Of a DNA stretch of 37,570 nt, positions 5,057-30,115 are shown piece after piece. The DNA comes from a virus. A program made the translations under genes and the position numbers. The notes beneath the pieces are model-generated. The model had not been told where the DNA came from. It saw only the letters and a program-made list of their open reading frames with translations, and did no database searches. The stretch is taken from positions 1 through 37,570 of the IMG/VR virus record IMGVR_UViG_3300001419_000016. One strand, 5' to 3'. Positions within the stretch are counted from its first letter, which is position 1, and the number at the start of each line of letters is the position of its first letter.

Positions 5057-8000
5057 ATGGAACCAAATATGGAAGATAATGATATAACCATTGAAGATAC
5101 TAAACTAGATGATCTAAATGAATTAAATCCATTTAAGGAAGAAGATAGTAAATTAACTTCATGGAAAAATCCTCCTAAAACAAGTGATTTAAAACAAGAT
5201 TTAGAAGATGCTAGAAGTATTCATGATACACATGTTACTAAGGTTAATACTTGGTTAGATAATTTAAATATTACTGGCTCAGCTAAAATACCTGAAGTTA
5301 AAGGTAGGTCTTCTGTAGTCCCTAGACTTATTAGAAAACAGGCAGAATGGAGATACGCCTCATTAAGTGAGCCTTTTTTAAGTACAGATGATGTATTTAA
5401 TATTGATCCAGTATCATACGAAGATAAAGAAGCTGCAGCACAAAATGCTCTAGTTCTTAATAACCAATTTAATACTAAATTAAATAAAGTAAAATTTATT
5501 GATGAATATATACGTACTGCTGTTGATGAAGGTTCAGTAGTTGTAAGAGTAGGATGGGATTTTGAAGAAGAAGAAATAGAGGTAGAAGTTCCTCAATATG
5601 CAATGGTTCCTATACAAGACCCCTTAAAAGCGCAGGAAATGCTTTCTCAGGGCATTTCTCCTATAGAAAGGGTGCAAGTAGGGGTTACTATAGAAAAACA
5701 GCTCAGAACCGTTAAAAACCAGCCTACATTAGATATATGCAATTATAATGATGTAATTATAGACCCAACCTGTAATGGTGATATTTCTAAAGCTAGTTTT
5801 ATTATATATAGATTTGATACTTCTTTATCTGAATTAGAGAAAGATGGTAAGTATTCAAATTTAGATAAAATAAATATAGATAATAATAGTATCCTTAATG
5901 AACCTGATTCAGCATTAAGTAATAATTCATCTAATACCTCTTTTAATTTTAAAGATAAACCTCGTAAGAAATTTACTGCATATGAGTATTGGGGATATTG
6001 GGATATAGATGGAACAGGAATAGTTAAACCTATTGTTGCTACCTTTGTTGGAGATACTTTTATTCGTTTGGAGGAGAATCCTTTTCCTGATAAAAAATTA
6101 CCATTTGTCTTAGCGCAATATTTACCTGTAAGAGGAAGTATATACGGAGAGCCTGATGGTGAATTATTATTAGATAACCAAAAAATAATAGGTGCTGTGA
6201 CCAGAGGTATGATAGATATTATGGGTCGTAGTGCTAATGGACAAATGGGTATCCGTAAAGATGCATTAGACTTAACTAATAAAAGAAGATTTGAAAATAA
6301 TGAGGATTATGAATTTAATGCTAGTGTAGACCCTAGACAAGGTTTCTATATGCATACATATCCTGAGATACCTCAGTCTGCTCAAATAATGCTTAATATG
6401 CAAAATGCTGAAGCAGAAAGTCTCACAGGCGTTAAAGCATTTTCTAGTGGAATATCAGGACAAGCATTAGGAAATATGCTTGATATTAATACTCCTATTC
6501 CTATGTCTAATGGTACTTTTAAGACTATGGGAGAGATAGTAGATGGTGATACTATTATTGCATCTAATGGGGGATTTACTAATGTAGTTAAAGCACATGC
6601 TATTAAATACCCTAAAGCAGCTTTTGATATCACATTTAGCAATGGAGCTACTATTAAGTCAGGCATTGAGCATTTATGGACTGTAAAAGTTACAGGTACT
6701 AATCGTAAACTTAGAGAATGGCATACTGTAGATACGGCTACTCTAGCAGATTACTTTAATAAATATTCCGATAGAGATAATTGTAATATCTATATTCCTA
6801 GATTGCATCGTCCTAGAACTACTAAAACTAATGTTCCTATAGACCCCTATACATTAGGAGTATGGTTAGGAGATAGTAATTCTTATGGAGCTAGATTTAC
6901 TACAGAAGATATTGAAATATTGGATAGAATTAATCAAGCAGGATATGCATCTTCAGAAGGAAATTCTCAAAATTCAGGTAATGCTATCAATTATGATATT
7001 ATGGATAGTTCAGGTAATATTAAAGATAGTAAAACAGGTCAATACTTACCTAATGAAAATACTTTACATACAAAGTTACGTAACCATAATTTTCTTAAAA
7101 GATATGGTGGAGAAAAGCATATTCCTGAAGAATATTTTGAAGCTGACTACTATATAAAATTAGATCTTTTACGTGGACTAATGGATACTGGTGGATATGC
7201 TCATTCAGGGGCTTTTAATATATTTTATCAAAAAGAGAGTAGATTAAAAGATGATGTAATTAGATTATTATACTCTATGGGAACTATTCCTAAAATTAGT
7301 AAGTATTTATCTGTTAATGAATTAAATTTACGTAAATCTAAATATAAAAATAATTTAGATATTAAAGCTAATACTCCAATATATGAGATTGGATTTACTT
7401 TATCAGATAACCCATTCTATTTATCTAGAAAAGCTAGTAAATATAAGTCTCCTAAACATAATAATACCTATCGTATTACCAATATTGTTAAGACAGATAA
7501 GGTACTAATGCGTTGTTTAACTGTAGATAGTGCAGATAAATTATACGCTGTAGGCAAAGAGTTTACTTTAACACATAATACTGCTACAGGTATTAGAAGT
7601 GCTTTAGATGCTACAAGTAAAAGAGAATTAGGTATTTTACGTAGACTAGGTGAAGGCATTATTCAAATAGGAAGAAAGATTATTAGTATGAATGCTCTTT
7701 TTCTTTCTGAAGAAGAAGTAATAAGAATTACTAATGAAGAATTTATCACTATAAGAAGGGATGATTTATCAGGTAATTTTGATTTGAAATTATCTATAAG
7801 TACTGCAGAAGCTGATAATGAAAAAGCTCAAGAACTTGCCTTTATGCTGCAGACTATGGGTAATAATATGGATCCTTCTATGAGCCAGATGATATTAGCA
7901 GATATAGCTAAACTTAGGAAAATGCCTACTCTTGCTAAGAAGATATTGGATTATCAACCTCAGCCTGATCCAATGATAGAAAAACAGAAAGAATTAGAGT

Positions 8001-8269
8001 TAGCTTTACTGAATGCTCAAGTACAAAATGAAATTGCTAAAGGTAAAGAAAACTTTATAGATGTTGAGCTTAAGAAAGCTAAAGTACAGTCTGAATTGGC
8101 TAAAGCTAAATTAGCTAAGTCAAATGCTGATATGGTTGATTTAGACTTCTTAGAGAAAGAATCAGGTAAATCTCATGAGAGAGATTTATTAAAGAGCCAA
8201 CAAAAATATGATAATGATTTACTAAAAGAAAGAGTTAAACAATTAAATAGTAAATCTAATAGTAATTAA
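5057..8269 (+). CDS. Portal protein precursor interrupted by an intein (N4 gp59-like position)
   Basis: A 1070-residue precursor; removal of the 368-residue intein (residues 474-841) leaves about 702 residues, a normal size for N4-type portals. Portal features in the exteins are 'VPRLIRKQAEWRYASLSEPF' near residue 90, 'NDVIIDPTCNGDI' near 233, 'KLPFVLAQYLPVRGSIYGEP' near 350, and the conserved 'SGISGQALGN'/'TATGIRSALDATSKRE' segment that the intein splits. The C-terminus (about 960-1060) is a long charged helix. The portal forms the dodecameric ring at the head vertex through which DNA enters and leaves. The start at 5057 has little Shine-Dalgarno signal; an ATG at 5069, preceded by GGAAC, is an alternative. 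Neighbours (small portal-adjacent gene, scaffold, capsid) support the call. Confidence 0.88.
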   Translation: MEPNMEDNDITIEDTKLDDLNELNPFKEEDSKLTSWKNPPKTSDLKQDLEDARSIHDTHVTKVNTWLDNLNITGSAKIPEVKGRSSVVPRLIRKQAEWRYASLSEPFLSTDDVFNIDPVSYEDKEAAAQNALVLNNQFNTKLNKVKFIDEYIRTAVDEGSVVVRVGWDFEEEEIEVEVPQYAMVPIQDPLKAQEMLSQGISPIERVQVGVTIEKQLRTVKNQPTLDICNYNDVIIDPTCNGDISKASFIIYRFDTSLSELEKDGKYSNLDKINIDNNSILNEPDSALSNNSSNTSFNFKDKPRKKFTAYEYWGYWDIDGTGIVKPIVATFVGDTFIRLEENPFPDKKLPFVLAQYLPVRGSIYGEPDGELLLDNQKIIGAVTRGMIDIMGRSANGQMGIRKDALDLTNKRRFENNEDYEFNASVDPRQGFYMHTYPEIPQSAQIMLNMQNAEAESLTGVKAFSSGISGQALGNMLDINTPIPMSNGTFKTMGEIVDGDTIIASNGGFTNVVKAHAIKYPKAAFDITFSNGATIKSGIEHLWTVKVTGTNRKLREWHTVDTATLADYFNKYSDRDNCNIYIPRLHRPRTTKTNVPIDPYTLGVWLGDSNSYGARFTTEDIEILDRINQAGYASSEGNSQNSGNAINYDIMDSSGNIKDSKTGQYLPNENTLHTKLRNHNFLKRYGGEKHIPEEYFEADYYIKLDLLRGLMDTGGYAHSGAFNIFYQKESRLKDDVIRLLYSMGTIPKISKYLSVNELNLRKSKYKNNLDIKANTPIYEIGFTLSDNPFYLSRKASKYKSPKHNNTYRITNIVKTDKVLMRCLTVDSADKLYAVGKEFTLTHNTATGIRSALDATSKRELGILRRLGEGIIQIGRKIISMNALFLSEEEVIRITNEEFITIRRDDLSGNFDLKLSISTAEADNEKAQELAFMLQTMGNNMDPSMSQMILADIAKLRKMPTLAKKILDYQPQPDPMIEKQKELELALLNAQVQNEIAKGKENFIDVELKKAKVQSELAKAKLAKSNADMVDLDFLEKESGKSHERDLLKSQQKYDNDLLKERVKQLNSKSNSN
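6476..7579 (+). mobile_element. Class 3-type intein with LAGLIDADG endonuclease, in the portal
   Basis: Intein of 368 residues (precursor 474-841). Block A is MLDINTPIPMSNGTFKTMGE, which begins with Met where ordinary inteins have Cys or Ser. Block B is GIEHLW, with His at intein position 66 and Trp at 68. Block F is MRCLTVDS, with Cys at position 347 in place of the usual Asp. Block G is TLTHN followed by Thr, with Thr at 366, His 367, Asn 368 and Thr as the +1 residue. Trp, Cys and Thr at these places are the signature of class 3 inteins, in which the block F Cys replaces the N-terminal nucleophile. Between B and F lies a two-motif LAGLIDADG endonuclease: LGVWLGDSN (Asp at 133) and LRGLMDTGGY. 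In the second motif Gly (239) stands where the catalytic Asp is expected, so cleavage activity may be lost. Confidence 0.92.
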
Positions 8270-9828: not shown

Positions 9829-9842
9829 TATAGGTGATTAAA

Positions 9843-11360
9843 ATGAGTATGATTTATAACGATCCTGTTGGAGGTTCTCCATCTTCAATTGGAAGTCAGA
9901 TTAGAACTGATTTCTTTGATAAAAAAGCATTAGTAGAAGCGGCTAAAGAAGCCTATTTTGGCCAGTTAGCTGATGTAACTAATATGCCTAAGAATATGGG
10001 TAAAACCATTAAAATGTTTCATTATCTTCCTATCTTAGATGATAGAAATATTAATGATCAAGGTATTGATGCAAATGGTGTTGTTGGGCAAGGAGATAAT
10101 AGTACTTCTCAGGCAACTATTGTAGTTACTCCTCCTGATGCATCTGGTACTGCTGGTGCAGGCGAACCTATGTATTTTGTTGGTACTGCAGCATGGGATA
10201 CAGATTTAGCTACTACTAAGGCTGCTGCTTTAGCTGAAGCAAAACAAGCTGTAGTTACTTATCTATTAAGTAGTGTTGTAGGTGCAGGTACTACTAATGA
10301 TTCATATGCTGAATTAAGTGTTACTGGTGCAGGCTCTGCTTATGACTTAGGTTATCGTTTTGCTGCTGCTACTTATACGGCAGATGCAGGTAATTTTTAT
10401 GCTTCATCTAAAGATGTAGGTACCATTAGTGGTAAAATTCCTCCTCTTACTGAAAATGGTGGACGTGTTAACCGTGTAGGTATGAAGCGTATTGAATTAG
10501 AAGGTTCTATTGAGAAATTCGGTTTCTTTGATGAATACACTCAGGAATCTTTGGATTTTGATTCTGATCCAGAATTATTGATGCATATTACTACTGAATC
10601 TGTTAAAGCTGCTAATGAAATTACAGAAGACCAATTACAAATTGATTTGTTAAATGGTGCAGGAGTAATTCGGTATACAGGTAATGCTACTAGTTCTGCT
10701 ACGCTACAAGGTAATGATTTAGCATCTCCATTTGCTGCAGATAATACTAATGATTTAGTTACATATAATGACTTAATTAAGCTTTCTATTGAATTGGATA
10801 ATAACCGTTGTCCTAAGAATACTAAGCTTATTTCTGGTTCTCGTATGATAGATACTAAAGTAATTAATGCTGCTCGTTATATGTATGTTGGTTCTGAGCT
10901 TACTTCTACTATAATGCGTATGACTGACTATCATGGTAATCAGGCATTTATTCCTGTAGCTCAATATGCTTCTGCTGGTAGTGTAGCTAAAGGCGAAATA
11001 GGTGCAGTAGGCGATTTCCGTATTATTGTTGTTCCTGAAATGATGCATTGGGAAGCTGCTGGAGCTACTGTAACTGATCCAGATGGAAGTAATGTATTCC
11101 GTTTTGGTCATGATGGTACTAACTATCGCTTTAATGTTTATCCAATGTTAGTTGTTGGTGATGCTTCATTTACTACTATTGGTTTCCAAACTGATGGTAA
11201 AACAGTGAAGTATAAAATTAATCATAAGAAGCCTGGTGAAACAGTACGTCCTGAAGACCCATATGGTGAAACAGGATTCTATTCAATTAAGTGGTACTAT
11301 GGAACTATGATTAAACGTCCAGAACGTATTGCTATTATCAAGACCATTGCTGAGATTTAA
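9843..11360 (+). CDS. Major capsid protein (N4 gp56-like)
   Basis: 505 residues from ATG 9843; AGGTG 6 bases upstream favours this start over the in-frame GTG at 9834. The segment 'RVNRVGMKRIELEGSIEKFG' then 'FFDEYTQESLDFDSDPELLM' and 'ANEITEDQLQIDLLNGAGVI' matches my memory of N4-type major capsid proteins, as does the late 'DFRIIVVPEMMHWEAAG' and C-terminal 'FYSIKWYYGTMIKRPERIA'. It is expected to form the icosahedral shell with an HK97-type fold. N4's protein is about 400 residues, so this one is about 100 longer. An Ala/Thr/Gly-rich stretch at residues about 80-190, between 'IDANGVVGQGDNSTSQ' and 'GTISGKIPPLTENGGR', probably accounts for the extra length as a surface domain. An intrinsic terminator follows the stop. 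Confidence 0.85.
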   Translation: MSMIYNDPVGGSPSSIGSQIRTDFFDKKALVEAAKEAYFGQLADVTNMPKNMGKTIKMFHYLPILDDRNINDQGIDANGVVGQGDNSTSQATIVVTPPDASGTAGAGEPMYFVGTAAWDTDLATTKAAALAEAKQAVVTYLLSSVVGAGTTNDSYAELSVTGAGSAYDLGYRFAAATYTADAGNFYASSKDVGTISGKIPPLTENGGRVNRVGMKRIELEGSIEKFGFFDEYTQESLDFDSDPELLMHITTESVKAANEITEDQLQIDLLNGAGVIRYTGNATSSATLQGNDLASPFAADNTNDLVTYNDLIKLSIELDNNRCPKNTKLISGSRMIDTKVINAARYMYVGSELTSTIMRMTDYHGNQAFIPVAQYASAGSVAKGEIGAVGDFRIIVVPEMMHWEAAGATVTDPDGSNVFRFGHDGTNYRFNVYPMLVVGDASFTTIGFQTDGKTVKYKINHKKPGETVRPEDPYGETGFYSIKWYYGTMIKRPERIAIIKTIAEI

Positions 11361-17896: not shown

Positions 17897-20800
17897 ATGG
17901 CAACTCAATTTGAAGACCCTTATGTATCTAAAGCATTAAACCTTGCTATTGCAAAAGCAGAAAAACAAAAGAACTTAGGAAAACTACCTAAACCTGAATT
18001 AAATAATCCATATAGTGTGAAAGAAGCTAGTGGGGATGTTGTTGGTATGTCAGCATTATCAGGTGCTGCTTTATTAGAAGGTTTAGGTAATATCGTACCT
18101 AGTGCATATAATTTTCTTAGTCAAACTGCCCCTAAAGCTATAGAATCTATTCTTCCTTTTGATATTCCCGGCCCTAAAGGATTACCTCCTTCTGATTACT
18201 TTAATATGATTGAACCAACAAAAAAATATGTTGAGGATAATCTATATAGTAATAATCTAATTGGACAACAGCAAAATGTAGCTGAAGGTTCTCAAGCAAG
18301 AAGAGATAGTGAATATCAAAGAGCTAATGAAAATATAAAAGAATCTAATAATGATGCTATTGGTTATTTAAAGACTCAATTACAGAATGCTAAGTTAGCA
18401 GGACAGGATTTAATAGATAATCCTTTGGCTACTACAGCATTAGTAGGAGAGAATGTAGGTCATTTATTTGGCCCTGGATTAGCAGCTAAGGGTTTAAAAT
18501 ATATTGGTAAACCTTCTACTAAAGTAAGTACTAAAGCTGATAAAAATCAATTAGCAGAGTTAGGTGCGGCCACTTATACCGCTTCTGCAGAAGGCGGCGG
18601 AGCCGCTAACCAAGTAGAAAATATTCATAAAGAATCCTTACAGGATTTTTTTGCTAATACAAGCCCTAAATATAATGATTTAGTTAATTTAGGAGTAGCC
18701 CCTGATAGAGCTATCTCTTTATTAAAAGAATTACCAGAGGTACAAGAAAGACTTAAACAAGAAGGTTTAGATGATGCATCACTTGCCAGTACTAAAGCAG
18801 ATGCTGCAGCTAAAGCAGGGTTAGTTGCTGCAGGAATAACTAGAGTATTAGGTACAGGTAAAGCAGAAGCTAAAGGATTTAAAGAAAGAAGTATGGTTAA
18901 AGAAATTCCTGCTCAAACTATTGAAGAAGGAATGCAGGGAGCATCTTCTAGTATTATATCTGAAGCTACTGCTGAAGATGCTGGATATAGTTCAGCTAAA
19001 CCTTTTGTTGATTTAGGTGGAGATGTTGTTACAGAAGCAGTTGCTGGAGCAGGAACTACTATAGCTACTAATCCCCTTAAAACAATTAAAGAAGTAACTT
19101 CTCCTATTAAGAAAGTAAATGATAAATTAAAAGCTAATGATGTAGCTAATAAAATTAGTGAAGAATATAAAAAAGTAAATGGTACCGAACCAACCAAAGA
19201 ACAAAAAGAAGTATTTAAAGCTACTGGTGAGGTAAGAGTTACTTTAGAAAATACTTTAAATAAAGAAGTAAAAGATTTACTTTCTAATCCAAATTCATTA
19301 GTGGATAAGGGTACTATAGAAGATGTAATTGAGTCTTTGGATGTTAGAACAAGAAGTACTCTTAAAGACATCTCAGAAGCTAATAATAAGCCCATAGAGC
19401 AATCTTTAAGAGAAATCTTAAGTATCCCATTAGGTAATAAGAAAGAGGCTCCTAATGCTTCTAATGAGTCTAGTAATACTACAGAAGAAGTAGAAACAGA
19501 AAAAGAAGACCTATTAAAACAGGCTAGAGATTCAGTTACTTTTACAGATGATATAAATACTAATGTAAATAATATTAGAGATAGTTTGGATATAGAAGAC
19601 CCAAACCAAAAAGTTTCATTAATAAATGAACAGATGGATAATATTAAAAATAAGATAAGTGAAATAGCTGAATCTAATTTATCTGAAGAAGAAAAGAAAA
19701 CTCAAATACAAGAACAAGGTAAGTTATTTGAGTATGCTAAGAATGAAAGAAATGCTCTTAAAACAAGTATAGATGCAAATATTAAAGCAGAAGTAAAAGA
19801 TAACTATAAAAATATAAAAGCAAAAGATACATCTTCAGTAGATAAATTATCTAAATTTATTATGGGTAATGAAGAAGATATTACTCCTGAAGTAGAAGAA
19901 AAAGCTAAAGCTCTTATAGCAGATAAAGAAATAGATGAAAGATTTAAGCGTGGATTACAATTTGCTTTGGATATGCGTAAAACTTTAAAAGAGAACAAAG
20001 AAGGTGCTAAAAGTTTAGATCAAGTAAGTAATGATATTTATACAGAAGGTTATAGTGAGTTAGATAAACCAAGTCTTAAAGAATATTTAGAAAGTTCCTA
20101 TGAAGGAATTATCTCTAATGATACAGATAAAGTAATAAATAATATTAGTAATTTAACTAAATTCTTAAAATCTCATCAAACTAAATTAAAAACTATTAAT
20201 GCTGCATTAGCAGAAGCTGCCCTTGAAACAGAAGAAGGTACTAATAAACTATTAGAGCCTCTTACTATAAGATATGGAAATAAAGACAGTGCTACTTTAT
20301 CTATTGAATACGCTGACTTTAAAAATGGTAATTTATATAAAACAATAGAAAAAGAAGAAAAAGCTATTAGAGGTGCATTAGATGTTATTTATAATGGAGC
20401 TAAAGTACTAGATGAAAATATTAAACCTAATACTCCATTAAAAGAAGTAGGTACTATCTTTAAAGATAGAGAGAAAAGAACAGGAGGTATCTCTACTAAA
20501 AAAGGTAGAAATAAAAATGCTAATACATTTAGGAAAGATATAATTCCATTTAAAAAACTATTAGATAATAAAGTAGATACGGAAACTACTGTTCCAATAA
20601 AGAATGAAATTAATGATTTAATATCTAAGTATATAGATGATATTACAGAATATGTAAATACTGGTTCAGTATCCTATAAAGATATAGAACAATTACAAAG
20701 AAAAATACAAAATAAATTAAGTAAATTAAAAGATAAAAAGAATATTAATACTAGTACTAATAATAATGCAACTTCTAGAAAAGAAGCTGTAGCTGTTGTT

Positions 20801-23800
20801 AGTAAGTTTCAATCCAGTGTTATTGCATATATGGATAGAAATGGCTTATTTAAAAATAATAAATTTCCTGAATTAGGAAAACTTACAGGAGGTTTAACTG
20901 CTAGTCTTAAGAGTTATATTACTGGATATAATAAAGATAAGACTCCTACTAAGATAAAGAATCCTAGTATTATATTTAATAATATGGAGTTAGTTAAAAA
21001 AGAATTAGCCAAAATTACTTCTGATCCTGCTAATAAATTACCTTCTTTTGCTTTCTATAATAATACTGGTAGTAATTATATTGCTAATGATGGAAATATT
21101 ATTGAAGTAGGAGATACAGTTTATTTTAGAAAGAAAGTTAAAGTAAATGGAAAAATTACTTATCAAGATTTCCCATATAAGGTTACTGGTTTAACCAAAT
21201 TAAATGATGGTAATACTGCTATTACTTATGATTCTCCTAAAGATGTAAATAACCTTGAAAAGGGTTATACATCTATTACGCGTAAAGTAAAAGAAATAAG
21301 TAGAGTAGAAAAAACTAATCCAATAACTGAAACAATAAATATAGGAGATACTACTTTTACTGTACACACAGTTGATAGGGCTTCTATTAATAATGTTTAT
21401 GGATTACATAATTCAGATTTAAATACTATTTATGTAGCAAAAGATATTTCTAAAGATGAGTTTGTTAATTATGTAACAGCATTAGATCCAAATAATTTAA
21501 ATAAAGCTTCTAAACAGAAGTCAGTTCTAACTGAAATGTTCAAAGAAGAAGGTATAGATTTACCAGGTACTTTATCTTTATTTAATGAAGAAGAGATAAA
21601 AGACTTTATTGTTTCACATGAATTAAGTCATTTGGTTAATAAAGATAAAGATAATTATCAATCAGATAAAAAACAAACTATTGCTACTAAATATAAAGCT
21701 AATGATAAAGATAATAGCTTACTATCTGATAGTGCTCTTAATATAGAAAAAAGAGCTACTTTAGATGTATTTAATGCAATTGGGGTTACACCAGTTAAAT
21801 TAGAAGGAAATACTAGTACTGTTTCTGAATCAGAAATAAAAATAGGAGATACAATTAGCTATGGTAAAAGTAACTTAGAAGGAATTGTATCTACTATTCG
21901 TGATGGTAAAGTATTCTTATTTAAGAAAGGTACTAAAATTGAAGGTAAAAGAGGCATTCTTTTAAAGAATGTTAAGTTAGTTTCTAAAGCTGAAAAAGAG
22001 CCTGTTATTAAGGCTCAGGAGACACGATCTACTAATGCCCCTAGTGATAGTACTCTTAAAAAAGAATCCCTAGAAACCCCTAAAAATAGCCGTAAAGACG
22101 AATTAAAACAAAATATTAATAATAAGCTTGGAGATTTAGCTGATTTAATTAGTGGATTCACTAGAAGTAATATGATGGAACCAGAACAGAAGAAAGCTAT
22201 TAAAGATATTCTTGTTCCACTTATGGCTGATTTAATTGAGTTAGGTGTTCTATCATTTAAAGAAGTTTCTATAGAAGTATATAAAGGTTTAAAGGATAAA
22301 TTACCTAAAGGAGTTAAAGTAGAAGAAGTAATAAATCATAGCGATTTAGCTGGTAATTATATTATTGCTACTAATGGTAGTACTGCAGAAGGTATTACTC
22401 CTCCTAATAAATTATGGGATTCAAATAATTCTATAGAAGAAATACTAAAAGAAGTATATCCAAGCCAAACCAAAGAAGAAAAGAAAGACCTTATAGAAAG
22501 CTTTGAAATTGTTACAGAAGAAGATGTAGTAGATGAAATTAATAATACTGAGCAGGAAGAACAAGCAGAAGAAGTAGTAGTTAAATCTGAATTAACTCTT
22601 GAACAGATTAAGGCAATGCTTTTAGAAGAGATAACCGATACTCTTTCTATTGGAAGAGAGTTACTTAAACTTGATGCAAACACCTTAACAGATGCTCATA
22701 GAATAGCTTTAGGAAATCATGTTCAAGCAGCAGAATTAGCTCAATTTAAAGTTAATTCTGATGGTATTCTTGATGAAGAAAATATTAAGTTATTTAACAA
22801 TGCAGCCATTGGTATTGATACTTTTAAATTAGAATATAGTAATGCTAGATTAATTCCTTTTGGATTAAATTTAAAAGATAAACCATTAAATGATTCTGTA
22901 GTTGCTCAGGATTTATTAGCTTTAACTGTTATGAAACCTGCAACAGAAAAAGGTAAAAAACTTGTAGAAGAATTCTTAAATAGTTTACGTAGTAAGAAAG
23001 CTAATAAAGAACAAGTAGACTTTAAACAAGTTGCTAAAGATATTTTAGATTTATTTGGTAATCCAGAAGTAGGGTATCCTACTATTAGAGATATTGTTAT
23101 TAGCCAATCAGTTAATAATCCAAGGAGTTTATCTAAGAGTGATTTGTACTCTACTATTGCTAATAATAGCCCTGTCAGAGATGATTTAGATAAATTAAAA
23201 TCAGCTAGTAGAACTTTTATTAATAAGAGAAAAATTCCTAAAGGATTATTGGCTCAGATACCTAATCTACTTAGAAGAGTACTTAATCCTTTGTTTAAGG
23301 AACAAATAATAGACCAAGCTAATATTACAGAAGATACTTATAATATTTTATATAATTTTGCTAAACAGGTTAAAGTTATCTCTGATGGTATCCAAGAAAC
23401 AGTGGGGAATGTTAAAAAGAAAAAGGGTTATCATTATTTGGATAATCCATTAACTTTACTTCTTAATAGTGATGGTAAGTTACCTTCTGTAATATCAGAT
23501 GCTATGGCTATCTCTACTTTATCTTGGTTAGTAACTGATGGTAAATATAGTGGTACTAACTTTGATACAGAAATTAATAAAATATTAAATAGGGATAGTA
23601 AAGAAACCATAACTCCAGAGGCTGCTGCTCTACTTAGAACAGTAGGTAAACCTTTACCTCAATTAATTAATAGATTAGGTAATCTAGTAACTAATAGTAT
23701 TAATCTAGGAGTAATTAATGATGCTCCTGAAATGTATAAAGAAAAGTTATCTGCTTCTATTGGTGAACAGATAATAGTTGCTTTAAGTAGTTCAGGTATA

Positions 23801-26800
23801 TTAAAGACTACTAGTTATACTCAAAGATTACTTAATGAAATTCGTACTGAAAATGAAATTAGACAAATTGGTAATTTAGATGCTGACTTAAAATTTGTTA
23901 AATTAAATTTAGTAGAAGTAGAGTCTAATGATTCAGGAGAGAATATCACTTATCAAGTTCCTACTGAACAAGCTAAAGTATTAATGGATATCTATGAGAA
24001 GAATAACTTATTAATTGATTCTCTATTAGGGATAGACAAAGATATTCTTGATGTATCAGAAGAACCAGTAGAAAAAGTTAAAACTAGAGTAGGTAAAATA
24101 GGATTAACTTCTACTCCTAAAGCATTTGCTGAGAATATTAAATCAGGACAATCTAAAGGATTTAAGATAAATAAAGATATGGGGCAATTGTTTTTTGCTC
24201 TGGGTAAAGATACTTTCTTATTAGCTGCTGGATTTAAAACTGATGCAGAAATAGAGAAGGTACCTTTCGATCAAAAAGAAGGGGTAATTGCTAATAATAG
24301 ACAACTAGAACAGCAATATGAACATCTTAAGAATTACATGGAAAGTAATAAAACTAACTTAGATAAGTTAATGTATTTTACTTACAATACATGGAGTAAT
24401 TTTAGAAATGGTATTGCTAATAATACTATTAACTATCAAACCTCTAAATTACAGAGATTTATGCTATCTGGTTCTAATTGGGAAACCAATATTGAAATGG
24501 GCAAAGGGGATACTCTTTTATTATTTAAATCAGCAGTAGCTCAATTATTGGATTATCCAGTAGATAAAAACCGTTTAGAAAAATCTCATGAATACTTTGC
24601 TGAAATAGAGAATAATAAATTATTTAATGATGCTGCAGATATAATTATTAGAATTCAGAATATTAGTAATGATACTGAGGCTACTTTATCCAGTGAAGAG
24701 AAAGCATTAATTGTAAAAGCAACCCATAAAGGTGAAGAGAATATAGGCTCTCTTGCTGCTCTATCTGCATATGCTAGATATAAATATGCTAAAGATAATA
24801 ATGAGAAATCTTTTACTACAGAATTAGGTAAAGAGATAGATGGTGTTACCAATGGTATGTCCAATATCTTATTTGAATTTGCACCTTTTACTGAAAAATA
24901 TAAAAAATTAATGAATGCCGTAGGATTCTATTTTAAAGGTGATACATTTAATTCATACTTAAATTGGAAAGAAATCCCTGGTAATAGGGATTTATACCAA
25001 GCTATGGCAGTAGCTATTACTAAAAGTTTATCTACTGTAGAAACTCAAATGAAAGAGTTAGTAGGAGCTGAAAAGAAAGAAGTAGAAAGAAGCAAGATAT
25101 CCCCTTTAAGAGCTTTCTCTCAATTTACACCTAAAGCTAAAAGAGAACAGGTAAGTAATCAATACACTGAGGAGATAGTAAATAGAAAACTTAGGAATTT
25201 ATCTCTTATTGTTGGTTCATTGGTTGAGTCTGATGGGAGTATCACTAGTGAAGCTAGACAGTTTGCTAAAGACCCTCTTATGACTTATGGATATAATGCG
25301 GGTATGGTTGCTATAGCTAGGGCTAAATCTGCTTTAGTATATGAAGATTTACAGAAAAAAGTAGTTAGTATGGCTATTGAATATAATAGCTTAGTTGAGT
25401 CAGGCCAAACAGAGGAAGCAATACCTTTAGCAAAACAAATTAGAGATTTAGTTATTGCAGTAGAAGATATATCTACTGGATTACCTGTATCTAACGAACA
25501 ATTAGATAATATAAGTAAAAATATAAAAGTAGATGGTAAAAGTTTATTTGTTAAACCAGATGAATTTTATTCAGATATTCTTGAATTAAAGAATAAACCT
25601 AATAAATTTGGTAGGACTTATCGTGCTACTAACATTAGGAATTCAGTTGAAGCTGTATATGGTGCAGCTATGGAATTTGCATTTGAGAATGAATATGAAG
25701 AAGTATCGAATGCTAAGAAAATTCTTGTAGGTACTATGTCTGCATTAAACCATATCTTTAAAGCTAACGAAAGACGTTTATTTAGTGAGTATAAAAAGAA
25801 ACATGGTTCTTTAAATCAGAAAGCTATATCTGAGATACATCAAGATATGCTTAAAAAAGGACATATGGTTACTGTTAAAACTCCTCTATCAGAGTCACAT
25901 GAGGACTCTGCATTAATAGCTAACCAAGTATCCAGAAATAAAAATGATACTAAAGCTAAAGTACATTTAGGAAATAATAAGTTTAAATACCAGCAATTTG
26001 ATGTGGATAATGAAGGTAATATAATAGAGTTAACTAAAGAAACTTCTTCATTAAGTAGTAGTTTAAATACTATGGAATTTTCTGATAGTATTGGTGTTAA
26101 ATCCATTGTTATATTAAATATTCTTTATGATGCTTTTGTACTTAACCCTACTATGGGTAAGCATAATATTATGGATATATTTGATGCTAAATTAGACGGT
26201 ATAGGTAATAGTCTTAATTCGACTGAAACAATGAATACACTTAATTCAGAAAACCATCAGAAATGGAATATAGTAGATGCTGTTAATGATACTCTTTCTA
26301 GATTTGAGGAGATTATAAGTAAAGATAAAAATATCTATAATATAGCAAATGATGCTTATATGAATGAGCAAGTTAATATGGGCATAACGTCTCCTGCTAG
26401 TATTAAGGATACATTTGCTGATTTCAGTTCTATGCGTGAAATGGTTAATGAGAATCTTAAATTAAAGCATAATAATTTAATTGTTAGTGATCAATTCCCT
26501 CAGACTGATAAAACTGCTGCAAGATTTACTTCTAAAACAACAGAAGAAGATATAATTAATGAAGTCAAAAACAATAACCAAGATAAACAAGGTTCTGAAG
26601 CAACAGGAGTATTTAATCCTGATGACTTTACTCATGCTGATAAGTACGATATTACATATGATACTGTATCTGATATATTTGATGATTTAACTAACGTAGG
26701 AAATGTTCATGAATCCTATGAACATAAGAAGAATCTTAAAGATGTAATAAACGGCCTAATTAAGCCTGCTATGGACTCTTTATCTAAGATATCCCTTAAG

Positions 26801-29800
26801 ATTACTGAAGTAAATATTAGCCGTAATAAGGGTTATAGTGGCCCTAATGACGATATCTATATGTATACCTCTGACCAAGGTAAACTTAATATTAGTAATA
26901 CAGAAATGTCTTCTCAGGAAGTATATGTACATGAGATGTTACATAATATTTGGAGAGTAGGTATAAGTAATAATTTAAAGATACAAAATAAATTAGAATA
27001 TTTACTGCAGAAAGCAAAACAACACACCCAACCAATAGACTTACTAAAAAAAGATAGTAATGGTAATGTTATTATACCTATTGGTTCTTCTTATGCAGAA
27101 GAAATGGTAAAAGCTAAGAAGAGATATAACTATATATTTAATAATAAAAAGACTCTTGGGCATTTACATGAGTTTGGTACTATTGCTTTGTCTAATGAGA
27201 CTTTTATGAATCATCTTAAAAGCATAGATGCTAGTAGAGATAAAGTAAAAAGCGGTAGTACTTTATATAGTAAAGTACGTGCTATGTTCCTTAATATTAT
27301 TAATTGGATAAGTGATTTAATTAATAAGAATGCAAATAAAAATGTTCATCAAGCAATTTATGATTTAGCCTCTAATACAACTAAAATTAATAAAGCTGCA
27401 GAAGGTAGAATAGCTGCATACCTTTACTATCAAGATAAATTTAATACTACTATTAGAGATTACTTAAATAGATTTGCATGGCAACCTTATAGTAAAGCAG
27501 CAGAAAAGTTCATATTAAGTAATGGTAAGTTTAGACATAATAAATATGTAAATATAGCAATTACTCCTTTAGCATTACCTTTCTATATTACCTCTGATGC
27601 ATTTAAGAAAGAGTTTAATAAGGTAATGTATAAATCTGGATGGACTAAGGATAATCCTATCTATAAACTTATATATGAAATCTCTGGAGGAAAGGTAAAA
27701 GATGTTCCTATTTTTGATTTAGCTAGAGCAGTTAAACAGCATGTTGAGTCTCAAAGAGAGCATATAAGAAATATATTCACTTCACAGATAACTAATGCGT
27801 TTGATCAAACAAATCCATTAGAAGAAGATAGTTGGCTTAAATTAACTAATGGATTACTTAAAACGGATATATCTAGTATATTTGATCCAAATAATAAAGC
27901 ACAGGCGAATAGAATAATAAAATTATTAAAGAATCCTCATATAGTTAAAGCAGATATTCGTACTATTCAGAATAAAATAAAGAGTAAGTATAAAGCTAAT
28001 TCTTTACTTATAATTCAGCAGGCAGAGTCTCTTGGTCATTTTATGGCTCAAGGTACTGTTGGATTAGAGATGCAATTATTGAATGCACATAAGATAGGTA
28101 TATTACATAATGGACAACCTATACAAGAATTAGAGGATTTAATTGATGAACTTGCTACCTTAGAATCTTTGAGATTTACTGATAAGAGTATTCTTGATGA
28201 TACTGCAGATATCATGAACCATGAATACGCCAGAGATATAGAAGAAGGTGCAGAGAATGGTGTGCAGATGTTATTAAACTTTCATACTATGTTTAAGAAG
28301 GATGCCTTAGAAAGGAATTTTGGTAATAAGAAGCATGGAATGATTAAGGGGTATACTAAAGAGAATTTTGCTAGTCATATTGATTATCAGATAGCTTCTT
28401 TATCAGAAGAAGATAATATGAGAAAGGCAGGATATATTAAGAAAGCTAAATTACCTAGAGCAGTAGGGGACTCTAATATGGGGAGTCCTTCTATGTATAT
28501 CTATGTTAGTAGAGATGGATTACTTAATCCATATATGAATGGCATATTTACTTTGCATAATACTAGAAGTAAAGGAACTAATATTGTAGAGAATAACTTA
28601 AATAATTCGGTAGATAATGTAGGACAAACCAGTAGAGAAGATTTAAATAGATTAACTAAAATGGGTATTGCTTCTTTACGCAAGCAAGCAAAACAAAGAG
28701 TAATAGACTATGATAAAACATATATGATACCTAATTTTGATAACAATGATAATCTAACATCTTTTAGATACATAATGTCTGAAAAGAATAAAGTAGATTT
28801 ATTGGGTAAAAGAGATTTAGCTAATAAGACGTTAGGTAATATGTTTGGAGCTATTCTTGAAAAAGAACGTGGAATTGATTATAACGAAAAAGCACTTAAA
28901 CTTCTTAAAGAAGACTTTGATAAATACTATTCTAATGAACCACATGAATATGTGACTATTAAAAAAGGAATGCCTCAATATGATATGCTTCCTGCTTTAA
29001 CCAGAAACCAAATACAAAAGATTTGGGGAACCAGTACAATTAAAGTAAGACAAGATATTTTTGATACTGTATTTGGTTTCCGTAAGTTATCTTTAGTGGA
29101 TGGAATGGATACATGGTTAAAAGGTAAAAGTAAAAGTGGCACAGGAATTAATCCTACAGCCAAAAGAATAGGGCATATTTCAGGTAAGTTATGGCAAATG
29201 GTAGTAGCCAGAGCAAAAAATGTAACAGTAATTTTAACTCCTGCTGTAGTTATAGCTAATAATTTAAGTAATGTAGTATTATTGGCTACCAGAGGTGTTC
29301 CTCCGCATAAAGTATTGCCTTATATGTATGAAGGGATACAGGCATTAAATACCTATAATAGTTTGAGGGATAAGAGAGATCAATTAGCTAATAGATTAGA
29401 AAGTAATCCTAAAATAGCTAATAGAAAAGCTCTTGAAATTAGGTTAGCTCAATTGAATAGTAGGATAGAAATAAATCCTGTTACTCCTTTATTGGATAAA
29501 GGTGTATTCCAGTCAATAGCTGATGATATATCTCCTGATACTGAGAAATTAGAAGAGTTACTTAATATCACATTTGAAAATGCTAATTTAATTCGTAAAA
29601 AATTGGATAAAAATATTAATCCAAAAGTAAAAGAAACTATTGTGGGTGGGTATAAACAAGTTACTTTATCTCCTGATACAGAAGTAGGTAGTTTCTTAGA
29701 GAAAGTTACTCAATATAGTGATTTTATTGCTAGGTATGCTTTAATTAAGCATTTAACTGAAACTAATAAAGTAAATCAAGATGAAGCTGTTAAGGATGCA

Positions 29801-30115
29801 TTAGAAACTTTCGTAGATTTCAATACATTAACTAGTCCACAACTACAATGGATTAATGATAATGGTATATTAATGTATACTAAGTTTTTCTTTAGAATCC
29901 AAAGAGTAATAGCTAAAGCTTTTATACGTGATCCTGGAAATGTATTAGCTATAGGATTAACTCAACAAGCATTTATGGATGTACCTGATATAGTGGAATC
30001 TAATTTCATAACTAATAATATTATTAAGAGATTAGATGGGCCAATAGATACAGTAAATGATAGGATTAGTGAAGCAGTAGGATTTCATGCATTTAATTGG
30101 GTACCTGGAATGTAA
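17897..30115 (+). CDS. Giant virion RNA polymerase (N4 gp50-like vRNAP) with zincin motifs
   Basis: A 4072-residue protein. A T7-like single-subunit RNA polymerase core lies near residues 2100-2800. 'NFRNGIANNTINYQTSKLQR' (Arg 2170, Gln 2181) corresponds to the DxxGR..NPQ region of T7. Motif A is EIDGVTNGMSN (Asp 2315). Motif B is ARQFAKDPLMTYGYNAG (Arg 2454, Lys 2458, Tyr 2466). Motif C is MDIFDAKLDG (Asp 2763). N4's vRNAP is about 3500 residues, is packaged in the head, enters the cell with the DNA and transcribes early genes from ssDNA hairpins. Outside the core are two zincin-like motifs: HELSH (1241-1245) with Glu 1284 downstream, and HEMLH (3012-3016) with Glu 3092 in LHEFGTIALSN. Two small beta-barrel-like segments start near 1069 and 1313. 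The end is 'EAVGFHAFNWVPGM'. The ribosome binding site is weak (TGGAAAAA). Confidence 0.9.
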   Translation: MATQFEDPYVSKALNLAIAKAEKQKNLGKLPKPELNNPYSVKEASGDVVGMSALSGAALLEGLGNIVPSAYNFLSQTAPKAIESILPFDIPGPKGLPPSDYFNMIEPTKKYVEDNLYSNNLIGQQQNVAEGSQARRDSEYQRANENIKESNNDAIGYLKTQLQNAKLAGQDLIDNPLATTALVGENVGHLFGPGLAAKGLKYIGKPSTKVSTKADKNQLAELGAATYTASAEGGGAANQVENIHKESLQDFFANTSPKYNDLVNLGVAPDRAISLLKELPEVQERLKQEGLDDASLASTKADAAAKAGLVAAGITRVLGTGKAEAKGFKERSMVKEIPAQTIEEGMQGASSSIISEATAEDAGYSSAKPFVDLGGDVVTEAVAGAGTTIATNPLKTIKEVTSPIKKVNDKLKANDVANKISEEYKKVNGTEPTKEQKEVFKATGEVRVTLENTLNKEVKDLLSNPNSLVDKGTIEDVIESLDVRTRSTLKDISEANNKPIEQSLREILSIPLGNKKEAPNASNESSNTTEEVETEKEDLLKQARDSVTFTDDINTNVNNIRDSLDIEDPNQKVSLINEQMDNIKNKISEIAESNLSEEEKKTQIQEQGKLFEYAKNERNALKTSIDANIKAEVKDNYKNIKAKDTSSVDKLSKFIMGNEEDITPEVEEKAKALIADKEIDERFKRGLQFALDMRKTLKENKEGAKSLDQVSNDIYTEGYSELDKPSLKEYLESSYEGIISNDTDKVINNISNLTKFLKSHQTKLKTINAALAEAALETEEGTNKLLEPLTIRYGNKDSATLSIEYADFKNGNLYKTIEKEEKAIRGALDVIYNGAKVLDENIKPNTPLKEVGTIFKDREKRTGGISTKKGRNKNANTFRKDIIPFKKLLDNKVDTETTVPIKNEINDLISKYIDDITEYVNTGSVSYKDIEQLQRKIQNKLSKLKDKKNINTSTNNNATSRKEAVAVVSKFQSSVIAYMDRNGLFKNNKFPELGKLTGGLTASLKSYITGYNKDKTPTKIKNPSIIFNNMELVKKELAKITSDPANKLPSFAFYNNTGSNYIANDGNIIEVGDTVYFRKKVKVNGKITYQDFPYKVTGLTKLNDGNTAITYDSPKDVNNLEKGYTSITRKVKEISRVEKTNPITETINIGDTTFTVHTVDRASINNVYGLHNSDLNTIYVAKDISKDEFVNYVTALDPNNLNKASKQKSVLTEMFKEEGIDLPGTLSLFNEEEIKDFIVSHELSHLVNKDKDNYQSDKKQTIATKYKANDKDNSLLSDSALNIEKRATLDVFNAIGVTPVKLEGNTSTVSESEIKIGDTISYGKSNLEGIVSTIRDGKVFLFKKGTKIEGKRGILLKNVKLVSKAEKEPVIKAQETRSTNAPSDSTLKKESLETPKNSRKDELKQNINNKLGDLADLISGFTRSNMMEPEQKKAIKDILVPLMADLIELGVLSFKEVSIEVYKGLKDKLPKGVKVEEVINHSDLAGNYIIATNGSTAEGITPPNKLWDSNNSIEEILKEVYPSQTKEEKKDLIESFEIVTEEDVVDEINNTEQEEQAEEVVVKSELTLEQIKAMLLEEITDTLSIGRELLKLDANTLTDAHRIALGNHVQAAELAQFKVNSDGILDEENIKLFNNAAIGIDTFKLEYSNARLIPFGLNLKDKPLNDSVVAQDLLALTVMKPATEKGKKLVEEFLNSLRSKKANKEQVDFKQVAKDILDLFGNPEVGYPTIRDIVISQSVNNPRSLSKSDLYSTIANNSPVRDDLDKLKSASRTFINKRKIPKGLLAQIPNLLRRVLNPLFKEQIIDQANITEDTYNILYNFAKQVKVISDGIQETVGNVKKKKGYHYLDNPLTLLLNSDGKLPSVISDAMAISTLSWLVTDGKYSGTNFDTEINKILNRDSKETITPEAAALLRTVGKPLPQLINRLGNLVTNSINLGVINDAPEMYKEKLSASIGEQIIVALSSSGILKTTSYTQRLLNEIRTENEIRQIGNLDADLKFVKLNLVEVESNDSGENITYQVPTEQAKVLMDIYEKNNLLIDSLLGIDKDILDVSEEPVEKVKTRVGKIGLTSTPKAFAENIKSGQSKGFKINKDMGQLFFALGKDTFLLAAGFKTDAEIEKVPFDQKEGVIANNRQLEQQYEHLKNYMESNKTNLDKLMYFTYNTWSNFRNGIANNTINYQTSKLQRFMLSGSNWETNIEMGKGDTLLLFKSAVAQLLDYPVDKNRLEKSHEYFAEIENNKLFNDAADIIIRIQNISNDTEATLSSEEKALIVKATHKGEENIGSLAALSAYARYKYAKDNNEKSFTTELGKEIDGVTNGMSNILFEFAPFTEKYKKLMNAVGFYFKGDTFNSYLNWKEIPGNRDLYQAMAVAITKSLSTVETQMKELVGAEKKEVERSKISPLRAFSQFTPKAKREQVSNQYTEEIVNRKLRNLSLIVGSLVESDGSITSEARQFAKDPLMTYGYNAGMVAIARAKSALVYEDLQKKVVSMAIEYNSLVESGQTEEAIPLAKQIRDLVIAVEDISTGLPVSNEQLDNISKNIKVDGKSLFVKPDEFYSDILELKNKPNKFGRTYRATNIRNSVEAVYGAAMEFAFENEYEEVSNAKKILVGTMSALNHIFKANERRLFSEYKKKHGSLNQKAISEIHQDMLKKGHMVTVKTPLSESHEDSALIANQVSRNKNDTKAKVHLGNNKFKYQQFDVDNEGNIIELTKETSSLSSSLNTMEFSDSIGVKSIVILNILYDAFVLNPTMGKHNIMDIFDAKLDGIGNSLNSTETMNTLNSENHQKWNIVDAVNDTLSRFEEIISKDKNIYNIANDAYMNEQVNMGITSPASIKDTFADFSSMREMVNENLKLKHNNLIVSDQFPQTDKTAARFTSKTTEEDIINEVKNNNQDKQGSEATGVFNPDDFTHADKYDITYDTVSDIFDDLTNVGNVHESYEHKKNLKDVINGLIKPAMDSLSKISLKITEVNISRNKGYSGPNDDIYMYTSDQGKLNISNTEMSSQEVYVHEMLHNIWRVGISNNLKIQNKLEYLLQKAKQHTQPIDLLKKDSNGNVIIPIGSSYAEEMVKAKKRYNYIFNNKKTLGHLHEFGTIALSNETFMNHLKSIDASRDKVKSGSTLYSKVRAMFLNIINWISDLINKNANKNVHQAIYDLASNTTKINKAAEGRIAAYLYYQDKFNTTIRDYLNRFAWQPYSKAAEKFILSNGKFRHNKYVNIAITPLALPFYITSDAFKKEFNKVMYKSGWTKDNPIYKLIYEISGGKVKDVPIFDLARAVKQHVESQREHIRNIFTSQITNAFDQTNPLEEDSWLKLTNGLLKTDISSIFDPNNKAQANRIIKLLKNPHIVKADIRTIQNKIKSKYKANSLLIIQQAESLGHFMAQGTVGLEMQLLNAHKIGILHNGQPIQELEDLIDELATLESLRFTDKSILDDTADIMNHEYARDIEEGAENGVQMLLNFHTMFKKDALERNFGNKKHGMIKGYTKENFASHIDYQIASLSEEDNMRKAGYIKKAKLPRAVGDSNMGSPSMYIYVSRDGLLNPYMNGIFTLHNTRSKGTNIVENNLNNSVDNVGQTSREDLNRLTKMGIASLRKQAKQRVIDYDKTYMIPNFDNNDNLTSFRYIMSEKNKVDLLGKRDLANKTLGNMFGAILEKERGIDYNEKALKLLKEDFDKYYSNEPHEYVTIKKGMPQYDMLPALTRNQIQKIWGTSTIKVRQDIFDTVFGFRKLSLVDGMDTWLKGKSKSGTGINPTAKRIGHISGKLWQMVVARAKNVTVILTPAVVIANNLSNVVLLATRGVPPHKVLPYMYEGIQALNTYNSLRDKRDQLANRLESNPKIANRKALEIRLAQLNSRIEINPVTPLLDKGVFQSIADDISPDTEKLEELLNITFENANLIRKKLDKNINPKVKETIVGGYKQVTLSPDTEVGSFLEKVTQYSDFIARYALIKHLTETNKVNQDEAVKDALETFVDFNTLTSPQLQWINDNGILMYTKFFFRIQRVIAKAFIRDPGNVLAIGLTQQAFMDVPDIVESNFITNNIIKRLDGPIDTVNDRISEAVGFHAFNWVPGM
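18559..18652. repeat. GC-rich nested inverted repeat and terminator-like hairpin within vRNAP gene
   Basis: An outer stem (GTTAG, bulge, CGGC at 18559-18570, with GCCGCTAAC at 18602-18610) encloses an inner stem at 18579-18597 built on the palindrome CTTCTGCAGAAG. It is a GC-rich patch in a very AT-rich gene. Twenty-two bases on, AATCCT-TAC-AGGATT is followed by five T (18633-18652), which looks like a short intrinsic terminator in coding sequence. Function is unknown; both may affect vRNAP expression. Confidence 0.4.

Follow-up and report, generated by a model that had tools for sequence, protein, structure and literature searches.

A predicted class 3 intein with a probably inactive LAGLIDADG endonuclease domain at a recurrent insertion site in the portal gene of an N4-type phage

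Introduction

Class 3 inteins are defined by a Trp in block B, a Cys in block F, and a Thr in block G (WCT), together with a first residue that is neither Cys nor Ser (PMC5050341, PMC7664689), and Cys, His, and Thr make up their catalytic triad (PMC7664689). In phages, inteins have already been found in portal proteins, with six cases, the PORT inteins, in the portals of cluster C1 mycobacteriophages (PMC5050341, Table 1), and an N4-like phage with an intein in the large terminase (TerL) has also been reported (PMC3670811). To these known portal inteins, the locus described here adds what appears, from sequence comparisons, to be a class 3 intein at a recurrent insertion site in an N4-type portal. 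No report of this portal site was found in the titles, abstracts, and passages of the literature on inteins and Schitoviridae, or on inteins, N4-like phages, and portals.

The locus lies in the IMG/VR virus record IMGVR_UViG_3300001419_000016, and the whole analysed stretch of 37,570 nucleotides is referred to as the window. An earlier sequence-only reading of the window had proposed a class 3 intein in the portal gene; the LAGLIDADG domain, its probable inactivation, the recurrence of inteins at the same site, and the position at the channel constriction go beyond that reading.

Results

A single open reading frame (ORF) at 5057–8269 on the plus strand encodes 1070 amino acids and corresponds to a portal protein of the N4/Schitoviridae type with an in-frame interruption. 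The Pfam SU10_portal match spans residues 43–987 of this ORF (E = 3.7e-151), the portal profile phrog_1216 matches it with E = 6e-240, and the portal at its spliced length is homologous over the full length to solved Schitoviridae portals (9d83, E = 5e-253; 9bgm, DEV gp80, E = 2e-239). When the 368 residues of the insert are taken out, a portal of 702 residues is left, which agrees with the arithmetic of the sequence-only reading. The flanks of the insert were contiguous in 79 of 79 informative relatives from IMG/VR, two of which (L034 and L075) read across the junction with 30 residues identical to the joined flanks of the window, and a second set of loci was likewise empty (79 of 79 informative, including L133). 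These empty sites indicate that the segment is an insertion and not normal portal sequence. The insertion that the sequence-only reading had placed at 6476–7579 inside a phage portal is thus confirmed by the open frame, the profile matches, and the alignment with intein-less N4 portals that it had proposed; uninterrupted homologues containing the insert as normal portal sequence, which it had named as contrary evidence, were sought and were absent among the relatives. Among the records of cultured phages, hundreds matched the portal alone and none covered at least 80% of the portal plus insert.

The window as a whole is part of the genome of a phage of the N4/Schitoviridae type. It encodes the portal; tail, capsid, and virion proteins with phrog matches; and, in a reverse-strand block, a primase, an exonuclease, a DNA polymerase, and an SSB. 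An ORF of 4072 residues (17897–30115) stands in place of the giant N4 virion RNA polymerase, an assignment made from position and size alone; it is larger than the schitovirus virion RNA polymerase of ~3,500 residues (PMC12633501). The major head protein ORF (9834–11360) has 508 amino acids against the 356 positions of the phrog_1357 profile, which it matches nearly end to end, so that ~100–150 additional residues lie within or between the conserved parts. Upstream of the portal region, a 568-amino-acid ORF (384–2090) had no PHROGs match. The viral contig L034, which also encodes an N4-type portal, contains a 509-amino-acid ORF (21–1550) that resembles FAD-dependent tryptophan halogenases, with a GGGSSGW motif recognized by eye.

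Table 1. Portal gene and predicted intein features in the window
Feature	Position	Strand	Evidence or remark
Portal N-extein, 473 aa	5057..6475	+	Pfam SU10_portal, phrog_1216; contiguous with C-extein in 79/79 relatives
Predicted class 3 intein, 368 aa	6476..7579	+	Empty sites, allele family, tree, fold match
Intein residue 1, Met; no N-terminal Cys/Ser nucleophile	6476..6478	+	Met in all six same-site inteins
Block B, His66-Leu67-Trp68 (W of WCT)	6671..6679	+	Invariant in 13 aligned inteins
Block C, first LAGLIDADG motif TLGVWLGDSN; catalytic Asp133 (6872-6874) kept	6851..6880	+	Aligned inteins
Block D, KHIP (Lys214-Pro217)	7115..7126	+	Aligned inteins
Block E, second LAGLIDADG motif RGLMDTGGY	7172..7198	+	Codon 7190-7192 GGT = Gly239, Asp in relatives
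Block F, Cys347 (C of WCT, predicted first nucleophile)	7514..7516	+	Invariant in 13 aligned inteins
Block G, Thr366-His367-Asn368 (T of WCT, His, predicted cyclising Asn)	7571..7579	+	Aligned inteins
Portal C-extein, 229 aa + stop	7580..8269	+	First residue Thr+1, aligned to DEV gp80 Thr490

Residues 474–841 of the portal ORF read MLDINTP...HLWTVKV...VLMRCLTVDS...TLTHN, followed by T, and every defining feature of class 3 that can be tested in a sequence is present (Table 1). The first residue, in this copy and in five other full-length inteins at the same site, is Met and thus neither Cys, Ser, nor Thr; Trp68 occupies position 12 of block B, Cys347 position 4 of block F, and Thr366 position 5 of block G, directly before His-Asn; and a nucleophile is available at +1 (Thr, codon ACT at 7580). 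His66 is the predicted base of the catalytic triad. Trp68, Cys347, His367, and Asn368 were invariant in the 13 aligned inteins, and across the six same-site inteins all of the class 3 residues (the non-Cys/Ser residue 1, Trp68, Cys347, and Thr366-His367-Asn368) were invariant, despite an identity to the window copy of only 47–52%, so that chance is not a serious explanation of these marks. The Met start, the Trp in block B, the Cys in block F, the Thr before His-Asn, and the Thr at +1 listed in the sequence-only reading were therefore all found, and its assignment to class 3 is supported both by the full signature and by the solved chains nearest in sequence, which are class 3 DnaB inteins. 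On this evidence, we infer that the element splices.

An AF2 model of the window intein, built from 13 related inteins, had a pLDDT of 84.4 and a pTM of 0.79. Its top matches in the PDB were PI-SceI, TliVMA, PI-PfuI, and class 3 DnaB inteins, pointing to a Hint/intein fold. Searches of Pfam and NCBIfam with the insert alone gave no match above the cut-off; Pfam LAGLIDADG_3 was matched by 12 of the 13 aligned inteins. Blocks C, D, and E could be aligned in the window intein, with two LAGLIDADG motifs, and I-DmoI as well as PI-SceI was among the fold matches, indicating an embedded LAGLIDADG homing-endonuclease domain. Only one of its two catalytic acidic residues is retained: Asp133 is kept in the first motif, and Gly239 replaces Asp in the second. 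The five other full-length portal inteins read MDSDG in block E; in the rest of the alignment this position is Asp, with one exception that has Asn. The second-motif Asp of LAGLIDADG enzymes is a metal-binding catalytic residue. Its replacement by Gly has probably left the window copy unable to cut DNA and thereby to spread, with its splicing residues intact; a single base in a single metagenomic contig underlies the Gly239 codon. According to the idea of a homing cycle, the endonuclease decays and splicing is preserved, since without splicing an essential protein would be lost, and the change from Asp to Gly in the window copy fits this idea.

No relative was found in IMG/VR when the window intein alone was used as the query, because the exact peptide patterns are private to this copy. 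The allele family was instead recovered from IMG/VR with DNA patterns spanning the junctions and then with an alignment of three inteins. The pattern across the N junction identified two further intein-bearing portals (L104 and L105), and in total, full-length inteins occupied exactly the same portal site in five other phages (L104, L105, L107, L108, and L110), with identities to the window copy of 46–51% in the search alignments and 47–52% in the multiple alignment. All five read MLDI...TLTHN and are flanked by the same portal residues. A contig cut at its end (L103) opens with 27 residues that correspond to the C-terminus of an intein in this position, and its +1 residue is Ser. Two other pattern matches (L082 and L102) were chance matches and were discarded. 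In a tree with 26 other phage inteins, the six full-length portal inteins formed one clade (100/100). The repeated occupation of the site, in at least five other phages plus one truncated case, makes it look like a true homing target.

On the portal tree, the carriers were scattered, requiring six state changes, no fewer than with shuffled labels, and at least four of the six were forced by well-supported branches. Two close relatives of the carrier L104 have empty portals, namely, L133 (95% portal identity) and L134 (92%). The scattered carriers and these empty close relatives together indicate that gains, losses, or both have happened often. Amino acid change between the portal inteins was low compared with synonymous change, which was saturated or high. 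Between L104 and L105, the inteins were 76% identical and the exteins 64%; recent horizontal transfer, suggested by intein identity equal to or above extein identity, was set aside because synonymous sites between the inteins are saturated, which makes transfers undatable, and we therefore claim only scattered presence. Mismatches to L104 cluster close to the insertion point, no more than ~28 bases away, on the downstream side in L133 and on the upstream side in L134, and may be traces of homing, escape of the target site, or simply a variable loop. They were not counted as homing tracts, since the loop is variable across the family at large. Most of the distant class 3 relatives, which include inteins in TerL and helicase genes (L083, L084, L089, L111, L116, and L117), lie at GK-T type motifs, and the portal site reads LGN-T; this common G-N/K-T context may hint at the route by which the portal site was first invaded.

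When the window portal is aligned with gp80, the portal of phage DEV, Thr+1 falls opposite Thr490, in a region free of gaps. In DEV, the inner diameter of the portal reaches the lower end of its range, ~26 Å, at T490, the narrowest point (PMC10925440). Once N4 has ejected its DNA, its portal tunnel is narrowed by a tunnel loop that has changed structure (PMC12633501). By this alignment, the intein would sit in the channel-lining (tunnel) loop, at the equivalent of the tightest constriction in a related portal of known structure. An AF2 model of the empty L034 portal placed the site in a predicted loop between helices; its pLDDT was ~40 around the site, and it was used solely for this placement. 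An unspliced portal would consequently carry a 368-residue domain at the constriction and would presumably be unable to assemble or to pass DNA. The view of the sequence-only reading that splicing would have to precede procapsid assembly is strengthened by the alignment of Thr+1 with the narrowest residue of a solved channel.

Discussion

The insert is very probably a class 3 intein that lies in the channel-lining loop of an N4-type portal and contains a homing-endonuclease domain with two LAGLIDADG motifs. In the mechanism that we propose, Cys347 would attack the peptide bond that links portal Asn473 to intein Met1, Thr+1 of the portal would then receive the N-extein, and cyclization of Asn368 would release the intein of 41 kDa, with the flanks joined through a 12-residue junction sequence into a 702-residue portal able to form a 12-mer. 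The endonuclease would once have copied the element into empty portal genes, which agrees with the scattered distribution; with the window endonuclease probably inactive, the intein would now persist by splicing.

The alternative that fares best keeps the same class 3 intein and makes its splicing a regulated switch, in which the unspliced portal would form no open 12-mer, and thiol-dependent excision at Cys347 would time procapsid assembly or answer to the state of the cell. The site at the channel constriction and the conserved amino acid sequence of the element would suit such a role, and class 3 DnaB inteins from mycobacteria are reported to respond to oxidative stress and to zinc (PMC6195587, PMC7360933). 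However, close portals function without the intein, and selfish spread accounts for both the scattered presence and the homing-endonuclease domain, and we regard a switch as unlikely. It is similarly improbable that splicing at the constriction acts as an assembly checkpoint, in which one unspliced subunit would stop DNA translocation or ring closure, excision would license packaging, and the inteins would be kept partly for this purpose. Still less probable is a splicing-dead remnant, or an ordinary portal domain, retained in the virion: the endonuclease motif is already degraded, which speaks for this reading, but all of the splicing residues, like the two junctions, are preserved and recur in five relatives, and retention would put 12 × 368 residues at the channel constriction. 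Splicing by a class 1 or class 2 route, with residue 1 or +1 as the first nucleophile and WCT incidental, is hardly credible, because, although Thr at +1 could serve as a class 2 style nucleophile, residue 1 is Met, the allele family shows no variation in the block F Cys, the Trp, or the block G Thr, and the best solved matches are class 3 DnaB inteins.

With the class 3 intein as the preferred reading, the map of class 3 inteins gains a site outside ATPases and enzymes, in a twelve-subunit structural ring and at a residue matching the narrowest point of the DNA channel. Because a portal functions as a ring of 12 subunits, it becomes possible to measure what share of unspliced subunits a virion will tolerate. 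The stages of a homing cycle are also represented in the set: sites that are empty, inteins in which both endonuclease motifs are intact, and one copy whose endonuclease is apparently dead.

Among the known systems, PI-SceI (the yeast VMA1 intein) has a two-domain fold like that of the model (TM-score 0.62–0.64 on the query), but it is a class 1 intein with Cys1 as its nucleophile and is only 13–14% identical to the window intein. The PORT inteins of mycobacteriophages likewise occupy a phage portal, although that of a myovirus, a likeness that covers the host protein. The N4-like Vibrio phages JA-1 (L088) and 1.245.O (L101) share the N4-type setting and have a class-3-like intein in a packaging protein, TerL, but these inteins lie in another gene, form their own clade (100/100), and are 23–24% identical to the window intein. 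They have no N-terminal nucleophile, a block F Cys, and a THN end, and thus look like class 3. The class 3 large-terminase inteins of Synechococcus phage B23, Rhodobacter phage RcDurkin, Mycobacterium phage LittleE, and Escherichia phage ELT3 are ~30% identical to the window intein over the full length, including the endonuclease domain, and have a THN-T/S end; they often lie at GK-T motifs, and the portal inteins form a separate clade (100/100). The mycobacterial class 3 DnaB inteins (M. smegmatis 6bs8, M. chimaera 6rix/6riy) have in common with the window intein the WCT residues, the absence of an N-terminal nucleophile, and the Hint fold, superposing on the N-terminal 70 residues of the model at ~1.0 Å. 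However, they are endonuclease-free mini-inteins in an ATPase, whereas the window intein carries a LAGLIDADG domain and resides in a structural protein.
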